Below are positions 3,056 to 5,571 of a stretch of 11,834 nt of DNA, in pieces. Both the position numbers and the translations under genes were made by a program. Within the stretch, counting starts at the first letter, position 1. Each line of letters begins with the position of its first letter. The stretch lies in the NCBI GenBank assembly GCA_003218935.1, contig QHPA01000350.1:1-11834 (forward strand), in the 5' to 3' direction. Under the pieces are notes generated by a model that was not told where the DNA came from, searched no databases, and worked only from the letters and a program-made list of their open reading frames with translations. Origin of the DNA: Verrucomicrobiota bacterium. Lineage in GTDB: Bacteria; Verrucomicrobiota; Verrucomicrobiia; Limisphaerales; AV2.

Positions 3056-4711
3056 TCACGATCGGTTCAGCGCGCTGAGGACGGCTTTGACCGACGCCAG
3101 TTCGATATTGGTGTCCACGCCAGCTCCCCACCGGGTGCGGCCGTCGCTGTGTTTCACCTGGATATAGGCAATGGCCGCGGCCTCTTCACCGGAACTCAAG
3201 GCGTGTTCGCTGTACTGAGTGATCTCGAAGCGCGGCACTCGTGCGGTTCCAAAGCCGTGAACCAGCGCGGCCAGAGGACCGTTGCCTTCACCGGAGAATT
3301 CGACCGGCTGGTCGTCCCGCAGCAAGCGCGCGCGGCAGCGAACAACGCCGTCGCGGCTTTCGGTCTCGAATCCCAGGAGCTGCCACGGCGCGGTGCGCTC
3401 AATGTATTCGCGCCAGAACATCGCCTTCAACTCGGCGCCGCTCACCTCGCGTCCGAGGCGGTCCACCTCGTTGTTGGCGATGGGACCGAACTCGCGTTGC
3501 ATTTCCTTGGGCAGTTCGATACCGAACTCGCTCTCGAGCAGATAGGCCACTCCGCCCTTGCCGGACTGACTGTTGACGCGGATGACCTCGCGGTATTCTC
3601 GACCGATGTCGGTCGGGTCGATGGTAAGATAGGGCACGTCCCAGTGCTGGCGGCCGCCCCGCTCCCACTCGGTGAGACCCTTTTTGATCGCGTCCTGGTG
3701 CGAACCGCTGAAAGCGGTGAAGACCAGTTCGCCGGCGTAAGGCTGGCGCGGCGGCACGGTCATGCCGGTGCAGCGCTCATAAACCTCGAGCATCGCGGTG
3801 AGGTCGGAGAAATCGAGCTTCGGATCGATGCCGTGCATGTACAGATTCAACGCAACCGTCACGATGTCCAGGTTGCCGGTGCGTTCGCCATTGCCGAAGA
3901 TCGTGCCTTCGACCCGGTCGGCGCCGGCCAGCAAGCCAAGCTCAGTGGCCGCGACCCCGGTGCAGCGGTCGTTATGGGTGTGCAGACTGATGACGAGGGA
4001 ATCGCGGTCCCTGATGTTCCGGCAAATCCATTCGATCTGGTCGGCATAAACGTTCGGCATCGCGACTTCGACGGTGTCGGGCAGGTTCAGGATCATTTTC
4101 CGCTGCGGCGTCGGTTTCCAGACCGCCATGACTGCTTCGGAGACTTCCTTTGTGAACTCGACTTCGGTGGCGCTGAAGCTTTCCGGTGAATACTGGAGCA
4201 TGACTTCGGTGCCCTTGAGCCGCGGCAGACGCTCCTGGATCCAGGTCGCGCCGCGCACCGCAACCCGGACAATTTCCTCCTTCGACATTCCAAACACAAC
4301 GCGGCGCTGGGCCGGCGAGGTGGAGTTGTAGAGATGAATGATGGCTTTCTTCGCGCCGACGAGTGATTCGAAGGTGCGTTCGATCAAATCCTCGCGCGCC
4401 TGCACGAGCGCCTGGAGCCAAACGTCGCCGGGCGCGCGGTTTTCCTCGATGAGCCGGCGATTGAAGGAGAACTCGGTGTTTGATGCGGAGGGGAATCCCA
4501 CCTCGATCTCTTTGAAGCCGCATTTAACCAGCGTTTGAAAGAGCTCGAGCTTCTGGCTGATGTTCATCGGCACCGCGAGCGCCTGGTTGCCATCGCGAAG
4601 GTCCACACTGCACCAAAGGGGCGCGCACGTGAGGACGCGATTGGGCCACTGCCGGTCAGGCAAATGGACCGGTGCGAACGGACGATACTTTTGAGACGGG
4701 TCCTTCAACAT
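3056..4711 (-). CDS. leuA: 2-isopropylmalate synthase, type 2 (LeuA)
   Basis: Catalyses acetyl-CoA + 2-oxoisovalerate to 2-isopropylmalate, the first committed step of leucine synthesis, in the cytoplasm. The start at 4711 gives 551 residues beginning MLKDPSQKYRPFAPVHLPDR, as expected for the type-2 (actinobacterial-like) family; the longer open frame upstream is repeat-derived. Visible landmarks are the DRE-TIM entry DLRDGNQAL (residues 37-45, R39/D40), the metal-binding HTHND (H244, H246), the flexible-loop motif GNGERTGN (273-280), and a C-terminal regulatory LeuA_dimer-type region (about 430-545, with GEGNGPLAALVHGFG) that in relatives binds leucine for feedback inhibition. No Shine-Dalgarno precedes the ATG (TTGAGCCT only). 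A leucine attenuator lies 220 bases upstream, so both transcription and activity are probably controlled by leucine. No other leu genes are nearby. Confidence 0.96.
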   Translation of the reverse strand: MLKDPSQKYRPFAPVHLPDRQWPNRVLTCAPLWCSVDLRDGNQALAVPMNISQKLELFQTLVKCGFKEIEVGFPSASNTEFSFNRRLIEENRAPGDVWLQALVQAREDLIERTFESLVGAKKAIIHLYNSTSPAQRRVVFGMSKEEIVRVAVRGATWIQERLPRLKGTEVMLQYSPESFSATEVEFTKEVSEAVMAVWKPTPQRKMILNLPDTVEVAMPNVYADQIEWICRNIRDRDSLVISLHTHNDRCTGVAATELGLLAGADRVEGTIFGNGERTGNLDIVTVALNLYMHGIDPKLDFSDLTAMLEVYERCTGMTVPPRQPYAGELVFTAFSGSHQDAIKKGLTEWERGGRQHWDVPYLTIDPTDIGREYREVIRVNSQSGKGGVAYLLESEFGIELPKEMQREFGPIANNEVDRLGREVSGAELKAMFWREYIERTAPWQLLGFETESRDGVVRCRARLLRDDQPVEFSGEGNGPLAALVHGFGTARVPRFEITQYSEHALSSGEEAAAIAYIQVKHSDGRTRWGAGVDTNIELASVKAVLSALNRS

Positions 4712-4735: not shown

Positions 4736-4929
4736 ACCACGGATGGACACGGATGCACACGGATAAAATGCGCGGAGCGCGGGTTTCAGTTTGCTTCGCC
4801 TCACTTCGCACCAGGCCGCGTCGAACCGCAACTGGTGAACGGCCTTGAAGCGGACTGAAGTCCGCGTTCGTATCGCCTGAACCTTGCGCGCCCCGTTTGT
4901 ATCCGTGTTTATCTGTGTTCATCCGTGGT
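4736..4929. mobile_element. MITE-like element with 30-bp imperfect terminal inverted repeats
   Basis: The left end at 4736-4765 reads ACCACGGATGGACACGGATG and continues ACACGGATA. The inverted right end at 4929-4900 reads ACCACGGATGAACACAGATA and continues ACACGGATA. The arms agree at 26 of 30 positions. Each arm is itself a degenerate tandem of about ten bases (ACACGGATG). The interior holds the hairpin at 4850-4865 and no gene. No clear target-site duplication is seen, though both flanks are A/T-rich. The element fills almost the entire space between the leuA attenuator and the leuA start, so it would be transcribed in the leuA 5' leader. From memory, ACGGATG-type repeats of this kind are widespread in verrucomicrobial genomes. 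Confidence 0.55.
4850..4865. repeat. Perfect 7-bp hairpin inside the MITE-like element
   Basis: GCGGACT (4850-4856) and AGTCCGC (4859-4865) form a perfect stem around a GA loop. It lies inside the inverted-repeat element between the leuA attenuator and leuA. There is no U tract. It is probably a separate short dispersed palindrome nested in the element. Confidence 0.45.
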
Positions 4930-4966
4930 AAAAAACAAAAAACCCCACCGCCGTCTGGCAGTGAGG
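4930..4966 (-). terminator. Rho-independent terminator of the leuA attenuator (stem 3:4)
   Basis: On the minus strand, CCTCACTGCC (4966-4957) pairs with GGCGGTGGGG (4952-4943) through all ten positions (two G-U pairs) around an AGAC loop. It is followed at once by TTTTTTGTTTTTT (4942-4930). No long gene ends here on the minus strand; the preceding ORF is the 29-codon Leu-rich leader peptide and the next gene is leuA. This is the arrangement of an attenuator rather than an ordinary gene end. Confidence 0.85.
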
Positions 4967-5061
4967 TTCAGGAAAGTCAGGTGATCGAACTAGAACCCGC
5001 CTGCCAGGCTGCACAGCAGCAACGCGCCCGGCAGCAGTTGAAGGTTCAGTGTGCGATTCAC
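4930..5061 (-). promoter_or_regulatory. Leucine transcription attenuator upstream of leuA
   Basis: Four complementary segments occur in order on the minus strand. Segment 1 is CTGCCGGG (5034-5027), inside the Leu-rich codons. Segment 2 is CCTGGCAG (5008-5001), at the end of the leader ORF. Segment 3 is CTGCCAG (4961-4955) within CCTCACTGCC. Segment 4 is GGCGGTGGGG (4952-4943), followed by the U tract. Segments 1 and 2 pair over eight positions (one G-U); 2 and 3 pair perfectly over seven; 3 and 4 form the terminator. By analogy with the trp, leu and his leaders, a ribosome stalled at Leu codons would cover segment 1, allow 2:3 and give read-through into leuA; rapid translation would allow 1:2 and 3:4 and terminate. 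The elements are seen directly; the regulatory outcome is inferred. Confidence 0.82.
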
Positions 5062-5079
5062 GCGGATACAGGTAGCCAC
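4990..5079 (-). CDS. leuL: Leucine-rich leader peptide of leuA
   Basis: A 29-codon ORF with GTG start and TAG stop at 4992-4990, ending 24 bases before the terminator stem. Its core RTLNLQLLPGALLL is followed by CSLAGGF; eight of 29 codons are Leu (six CTG, one CTT, one TTG), clustered as Leu-Asn-Leu-Gln-Leu-Leu and Leu-Leu-Leu. A shorter start at the in-frame GTG at 5061 (23 codons, all Leu codons kept) is equally possible, and an in-frame TTG lies at 5097. None has a convincing Shine-Dalgarno. The role is ribosome-position sensing of leucyl-tRNA rather than a functional product. It was found by reading the strand upstream of leuA; it is below usual gene-size cut-offs. Confidence 0.78.
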   Translation of the reverse strand: MATCIRVNRTLNLQLLPGALLLCSLAGGF

Positions 5080-5163
5080 TTTCGCGCTGTGAGTCAATTT
5101 GTATTTTACTGTTCGTTAAAGGCGGGCTTTGGCACAGTGGCGCGGTAATTAACTCCGAACTTT

Positions 5164-5571
5164 ATGAACGTCCAGATTGCCGTCTTGTGCGACGCCGCGA
5201 CCGATTACGGCGGAAAACTGAATCTGCTCGGCGCTTTCGACACGATTGCCACGCAACAACTGCCCGCGGTGCATCCGCAATGTTCCGTCGCGCTGCGCAT
5301 TGTTTTCAGCAAAGTGGAAGAAGGACCGCACAAGGTGAAGATGAATTTCGTGGACGAAGACGGACGATTTGTGATGCCCAGCATCGACATGCCGGCGGAG
5401 GTCGCTTTACCGCCGGACGCGAACTTCGTGGCGCGCAATTTCATCATCAACATCCAGCAGTTGAAGTTCGACAAGCCCGGCCAATACGCCATCGATATCG
5501 CGATCGACGGTCGGCAGGAATCGAGCATTCCGCTGCACGTAAAGCAAATGCCGCCGCCGAACCAGGGTTGA
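5164..5571 (+). CDS. DUF6941-like conserved protein
   Basis: 135 residues with no signal peptide, membrane segment or cysteine cluster. The opening MNVQIAVLCDAATDYGGKLN, then LLGAFDTIATQQLPAVHPQC, resembles the small conserved family I know as DUF6941 (recognition from memory). The rest alternates short hydrophobic strands (VALRIVFSKV, HKVKMNFVDEDG, YAIDIAIDG), so a compact all-beta fold is likely. Function unknown. There is no Shine-Dalgarno before the ATG at 5164. The gene is divergent from the leuA leader, whose GTG start lies 84 bases away, so the two promoters must sit close together. Downstream, a GC hairpin CCCGC/GCGGG (5650-5666) followed by a short T4 could be a weak terminator. It reads cleanly as one intact frame. 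Confidence 0.8.
   Translation: MNVQIAVLCDAATDYGGKLNLLGAFDTIATQQLPAVHPQCSVALRIVFSKVEEGPHKVKMNFVDEDGRFVMPSIDMPAEVALPPDANFVARNFIINIQQLKFDKPGQYAIDIAIDGRQESSIPLHVKQMPPPNQG

Follow-up and report, generated by a model that had tools for sequence, protein, structure and literature searches.

Leader-peptide attenuation is a textbook mechanism of gene regulation, and enteric bacteria such as E. coli and S. typhimurium have leu leader attenuators, represented in Rfam by Leu_leader. According to the accessible parts of a 2010 survey, leader-peptide systems were, ermC aside, recorded only from Proteobacteria and Actinobacteria, to which a his leader from Firmicutes was added (PMC2965389). S. aureus has since joined the known cases of leader-peptide attenuation: as described in the available portion of that account, its leucine-rich ilv-leu leader peptide resembles the locus analysed here in serving Leu-dependent attenuation at a U-tailed terminator in branched-chain synthesis, but belongs to the Firmicutes, lies upstream of ilvD in an ilv-leu operon and is accompanied by CodY as a second control (PMC5794164). 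The actinobacterial LEU element likewise consists of an upstream ORF with a run of Leu codons before leuA, for which the available sections of its description propose a pseudoknot, the Leu codons pairing with the leuA Shine-Dalgarno box, and judge classical attenuation unlikely (PMC1262725). No description of amino-acid attenuation in Verrucomicrobia was found in the open-access literature, subscription papers being mostly outside the scope of the search; a paper on an Akkermansia leader concerns, in its accessible part, an erm leader (PMC11683593).

The present locus lies in a window of 11,834 nucleotides (the whole stretch of DNA analysed) from a Verrucomicrobiota bacterium, where it occupies the minus strand from 5097 to 4931, upstream of leuA (Table 1). 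An initial annotation had interpreted it as a leucine-peptide attenuator of that gene, and this interpretation was supported: the helices, the Leu codons and the terminator are all present, and the arrangement stands above chance by virtue of the stability of the leader fold (z = -3.05; 0 of 200 shuffles equally stable) and, mainly, of conservation in relatives. These parts and their conservation, together with terminator covariation, codon constraint on the antiterminator and the folding predicted around a stalled ribosome, point at the level of sequence to what is very probably a ribosome-mediated transcription attenuator of leuA of the classical kind, from which we infer the transcription start, translation and response to leucine.

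Table 1. Predicted elements of the leader locus and the gene downstream, in window coordinates.
Feature	Position	Strand	Remarks
-35 promoter hexamer TTGACT	5092..5097	minus	TTGAC at equal start-codon distance in 74/94 leaders
-10 promoter hexamer TACCTG, weak	5069..5074	minus	17-nt spacer; 7 nt upstream of start codon
Leader ORF, 23 codons, GTG 5061 to TAG 4990, VNRTLNLQLLPGALLLCSLAGGF	4990..5061	minus	kept in relatives
Segment 1, CTGCCGGGC, pairs with 5009-5001	5026..5034	minus	predicted fold; 1:2 not uniform in relatives
Segment 2, last leader-ORF codons	4993..5009	minus	partner is segment 1 or 3
Segment 3, terminator 5' arm and antiterminator partner	4955..4969	minus	
Segment 4, terminator 3' arm	4940..4952	minus	
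U-rich terminator tail, TTTGTTTTT	4931..4939	minus	
leuA, 2-isopropylmalate synthase (long type), regulated gene	3056..4711	minus	NF002991 and TIGR00970 above curated cut-off

The stop codon of the leader ORF (TAG, 4992-4990, minus strand) is followed by a terminator stem, GAACCTCACTGCC / GGCGGTGGGGTTT with loop AGAC, that extends from 4969 to 4940 and adjoins a tail at 4939-4931; as originally described, the terminator is strong and U-tailed, but 13 pairs including G-U were counted instead of 10. The antiterminator (segments 2 and 3; 5007-4993 with 4969-4955) similarly comprises 13 pairs flanking a two-base internal mismatch where seven had been claimed, and helix 1:2, given as eight pairs, has nine in the predicted fold (CTGCCGGGC, 5034-5026, with GCCTGGCAG, 5009-5001). 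Segment 3 is common to terminator and antiterminator, so that the two pairings are mutually exclusive. The hairpin looks like any plain intrinsic terminator, as would befit the ordinary terminator of an upstream gene beside a chance Leu-rich ORF; that explanation is scarcely credible, however, given that the upstream gene in the window is on the opposite strand (5164-5571, plus) and that the leader recurs together with its promoter across the order. The identification of the next gene as leuA was upheld by the two protein families listed in Table 1; it starts at ATG 4711, and its product has 551 amino acids. LeuA matches in many relatives begin only at residue 21 of the query, which had been started at 4771, 20 codons upstream of ATG 4711 and inside a repeat; leuA distances in the scripts are consequently off by 60 nt, helix and promoter results being unaffected. 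Between terminator and leuA, at 4736-4929, lie inverted-repeat arms of 33 nt, 85% complementary and 128 nt apart, constituting a MITE- or REP-like insertion, the end motif of which, CCACGGATGAACAC, has 14 copies in the genome (reversed control, 0).

Conservation was assessed in regions upstream of leuA in relatives. A genome scan for LeuA, from which the best 80 of 244 relatives were kept, was complemented by a further set in which all 58 genomes, the window's own included, gave a LeuA-like match; 80 loci, 28 further loci and the window, with duplicates removed, provided 99 distinct upstream regions. A script located a Leu-rich ORF and then a U-tailed hairpin in 84 of these, and 79 were retained as canonical, those excluded being spurious choices (L071, L076), a terminator with no clear Leu leader (L061) and diverged leaders with hairpins (L103, L104). 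Start and promoter could be placed in 74, which constitute alignment A1; a further five (L016, cut by a contig end, L047, L048, L063 and L065) have leader and hairpin without a start that has a promoter match at 33-39 nt, and because they were omitted A1 is partly promoter-selected. Another 20 leaders, not promoter-selected, were added to give 94 in total, and two of the 74 assigned starts look wrong (L059, L068). The 15 regions in which the script found no leader plus hairpin were L005, L023 (whose leader contains Ns but which has the terminator), L046 (with 77 nt of upstream sequence) and a group comprising L049, L053, L055, L067, L070, L073-L075 and L077-L080. The members of this last group, together with L071 and L076, are Verrucomicrobiales- and Chthoniobacterales-like loci with other Leu-containing short ORFs upstream of leuA (e.g., MTTTATALLLLSLRLTQG), after which come hairpins without a clear U tract, and several carry the motif CGACTTACG; they are possibly under different control. 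The same leader was also encountered in L060, on a contig titled Proteobacteria bacterium WB4_2_1501 with a LeuA 76% identical to the window's, an assembly that is probably mislabelled or mixed.

Read by eye, the peptide consensus approximates to VNRNLNLLLxNALLLxxAAVGF, with 6.6 Leu codons per leader (74 leaders) and a well-conserved tail, AAVGF. The peptide core singled out in the initial annotation, PGALLLCSLAGGF, proved to be a local variant, the family core being NLNL..LL..ALLL..AAVGF-stop.

The 29-codon ORF with eight Leu codons that had been described on the minus strand of the window (GTG 5079 to TAG 4990) is indeed present, but conservation points to the second GTG of the frame, at 5061, as the start, which probably leaves 23 codons. 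When start codons were picked by peptide length among ATG and GTG in the 94 leaders, 72 were GTG and 22 ATG, and TTGAC was found 34-37 nt before the start codon in 74, against 0.285 expected in shuffled upstream sequence (74 of 99 if the five promoter-less leaders are counted as misses); the histogram compiled prior to filtering has the same peak, with 51 distances of 34-36 nt to GTG among 69 leaders. From this spacing a leaderless mRNA is predicted, the simplest reading of the sequences being that the leader transcript would begin at the start codon itself or no more than 1-2 nt away. Shine-Dalgarno-like tetramers occur at chance (10 of 94 leaders; 11.3 when shuffled), and it is the promoter spacing that carries the leaderless argument, since some Verrucomicrobia are Shine-Dalgarno-scarce anyway, as stated in the available part of a published account (PMC10783764). 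The same attenuator might instead be translated from GTG 5079 or an upstream start, behind an ordinary 5' untranslated region and a promoter that was not recognised: the 29-codon frame is open in the window, the scarcity just cited means that the absent Shine-Dalgarno sequence tells little, TACCTG is a weak -10, and a consensus promoter scan of the window did not list this promoter. This alternative is nevertheless unlikely in view of the recurrent TTGAC spacing, and GTG 5079 was rejected as the start, as it lies within the spacer of the TTGACT-17-TACCTG promoter and reads GCG in the close relatives L045 and L002.

Covariation, suggested at the outset as a check on the stems, was evident in the terminator: 97.7% of 3:4 cells are paired in the 74 leaders, both sides have changed at 6 of 12 pairs, and none of 500 shuffles scored as high on any of five measures. 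One pair, C-G in 54 leaders and A-U in 16, accompanies a change in C-run length, and its switch may represent few events; the terminator sequence is highly conserved across leaders. For the antiterminator the pairing was borne out (84.8% of 2:3 cells in the 74 leaders, compared with 28.6-59.6% when slid), but covariation was modest relative to shuffles: the observed value was reached in 0, 17, 2, 73 and 1 of 500 on the five measures, the 17 and 73 referring to both-side-changed pairs and pair types, and a slide of +1 gave 16 both-side cells against 14 in the true register. With the 20 additional leaders (94), the proportions paired were 97.8% for the terminator and 84.4% for the antiterminator. 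Segments 2, 3 and 4 jointly depart from the majority in L052 (GACGGTTGGGGT / CGCCCCATCGTC / GACGATGGGGCT) and likewise in L144. RNAalifold applied to A1 returned an extra helix of four pairs, the Leu codons with the start of segment 2, which corresponds to 1:2.

A codon test, in which the peptide was held fixed and codons were redrawn by leuA usage, showed the observed 2:3 duplex to be stronger than the average over synonymous codings in all 74 leaders (mean -20.0 versus -14.0 kcal/mol). The Gly codon two positions ahead of the stop's last sense codon reads GGG in 68 of 74, GGG accounting for 12% of Gly in leuA. The Val codon before that Gly is GTG in only 3 of 61 leaders, against a share of 48% among the Val codons of leuA (binomial p 1.7e-13, without correction for relatedness), even though GTG there would complete the antiterminator; at position 89/44, where the Val wobble faces segment 3, 89 of 94 leaders have a mismatch, and our guess is that avoidance of G at this wobble keeps 2:3 weaker than 3:4. 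The Leu codons are CTG (63%), CTT (15%) and TTG (11%), with CTG at 28% in leuA, and their choice favours 1:2, the duplex beating the Leu-synonymous mean in 77 of 94. An arrest peptide, in which the nascent chain rather than slow Leu codons would sense leucine and stall the ribosome, could account for a conserved AAVGF, but RNA pairing explains that tail, codons as well as residues are constrained, tails vary jointly with segments 3 and 4 in L052 and L144, and the Leu codons vary while Leu stays; as the main mechanism it was rejected on the codon test, and it must be considered very improbable.

To model the ribosome, the RNA ahead of a stalled ribosome was folded with segment 4 still unmade. 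When the A site was placed at either the final Leu codon or the third from the end, all 94 leaders were predicted to form six or more 2:3 pairs; with no ribosome, 2:3 was predicted in 51 and 1:2 (at least four pairs) in 46, the window leader being one in which 1:2 forms and 2:3 does not. With the ribosome at the stop codon 2:3 was predicted in 0 of 94, a figure that holds by construction because the ribosome there covers segment 2. Of the features that an alignment of leuA upstream regions had been expected to retain, the run of Leu codons is kept, as are segments 2, 3 and 4 and the terminator with its U tail, while helix 1:2 is less uniform than had been implied.

In the attenuation mechanism envisaged, RNA polymerase would start at or within a base or two of GTG 5061, as predicted from the promoter, and ribosomes would therefore load on the 5' end of the RNA. 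When leucine is ample, the ribosome would translate as far as the stop codon where segment 2 ends, and this segment would be covered, or held by segment 1, so that 3:4 pairs and transcription ends some 125 nt from its start, at the U tract. A shortage of charged tRNA-Leu would instead stall the ribosome on the Leu codons with its front edge short of segment 2, whereupon 2:3 would pair, the terminator could not form and leuA would be transcribed. The points that count against this mechanism are the modest covariation of 2:3, the mismatch at 89/44, the patchy prediction of 1:2 and a genus, g67, without the leader.

A strong terminator and a highly conserved sequence would suit a riboswitch, T-box or protein-bound leader that controls the terminator, the ORF being incidental. 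An Rfam search, which the initial annotation had advised, yielded no match at the leader: at E up to 1 the window gave two weak matches, both elsewhere, and 15 relatives (13 with a canonical leader) gave one tRNA only at gathering level. The ORF, moreover, retains its Leu run, its promoter-relative start and its stop at the end of segment 2. Such control is extremely improbable, and a riboswitch or T-box was rejected on the absence of an Rfam match in the window and the 15 relatives.

A covariance model, R1, was built from A1 and matched 252 of 293 genomes of the order at E<=1e-3, including 139 of 154 of good quality and 110 of 118 genera; such a match may lie anywhere in the genome, and a weaker match can represent the leader of ilvB or some different terminator, as the window's own genome illustrates. 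At 1e-6 the count, taken from the listing, was 226 of 293. In a phylum sample of 115 genomes, only the window's own matched at E<=1e-6 (0 of 114 others); among the matches listed, 20 of the 114 others appear, all 'same class'. Ten R1-negative genomes were searched for short-type LeuA, which was present in seven. The initial annotation had held that relatives conserving leuA without the leader would count against an attenuator, and leuA devoid of an upstream leader was found in one genus tested, g67 (three genomes; L174, L177, L178); L175 and L179 have diverged Leu leaders with U-tailed hairpins, L176 offers 130 nt upstream, and L180 is a fragment. Some genomes of the order have, in place of the long LeuA, a different one that shares 28-32% identity with that of the window; the one such gene tested by family, in L110, belongs to TIGR00973 (695 bits, cut-off 598.7). 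A Leu leader and terminator were located by script upstream of this second subfamily in 20 of 20 regions, 16 of which have TTG[AC]C at a distance of 35-37 nt upstream of an in-frame start; the sample is not blind because all 20 have an R1 match and 13 were already listed beside leuA. G019 has both LeuA types.

In the window's genome, R1 also matched (27.3 bits) upstream of an acetolactate synthase gene (L113 1400-1731, G000:C534), with leader peptide MILTALQIAVLVVVVDDAAVACRA, an ATG 37 nt after TTGACC and terminator AACCCACGGCCG-gcca-CGGTCGTGGGTT; acetolactate synthase models give the best matches to this gene, with scores under the cut-offs because the read is truncated and contains masked bases. 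Among 28 ilvB loci from 30 genomes (L146-L173), 24 have a Val/Ile/Leu-rich ORF and a U-tailed hairpin, the script finding no leader plus hairpin in L150 (1 nt upstream), L156, L160 and L172; in most the distance from TTG[AC]C to the ATG is about 34-42 nt, and an antiterminator is also present. These 24 ilvB loci are described as preceded by a separate, predicted Val-rich attenuator. Two other R1 matches were recorded in the same genome. At L112 1489-1600 (G000:C80; 34.6 bits), GGCAAGCAGGAGGGT could pair with terminator arm ACCCTGCTTGCC, the downstream gene is transporter-like by eye, and there is no clear Leu leader. L114 (G000:C200; 24.5 bits) adjoins genes resembling ribosomal proteins L13/S9 and is probably merely a similar terminator.

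More tentatively, and as a possibility that we would not yet call probable, the leaders may form an order-wide regulon of leaderless leader mRNAs (leuA with Leu, ilvB with a Val-rich peptide, and probably others besides); ribosome and polymerase would be synchronised by the entry of ribosomes at the RNA's 5' end instead of by a 1:2 pause hairpin, the conserved internal mismatch would hold the antiterminator weaker than the terminator, and the switch would have stayed while leuA was swapped for a distant subfamily. That the leader stands before both LeuA subfamilies suggests that a regulatory RNA can persist for longer than the gene under its control.

The kind of control is thus known, whereas, judged against the open-access literature, the phylum and the leader family look undescribed: a leucine attenuator in most sampled members of a Verrucomicrobiota order, without an Rfam match, would extend such control to another phylum, and the covariance model could be used in uncultured genomes to annotate how leuA is regulated. 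With its predicted leaderless GUG start, the leader additionally offers a compact system in which to ask how leaderless mRNAs couple translation and transcription. In the available parts of the reports on C. glutamicum ilvBNC (PMC11857589) and S. meliloti trpL (PMC7298713), the transcripts of attenuation leaders likewise begin at the leader's start codon or one nucleotide away from it, but with ATG starts, other amino acids and other phyla, the starts being mapped there and predicted here. Compared with the LEU element, for which the accessible text reports no obvious terminator (PMC1262725), the present locus has a strong U-tailed intrinsic terminator and an antiterminator. With the enteric leu attenuators it shares a Leu-rich leader peptide, three mutually exclusive pairings and a U-tailed terminator upstream of leuA; it differs from them in its predicted leaderless start, mostly at GTG, in its unmatched status in Rfam and in its sequence.
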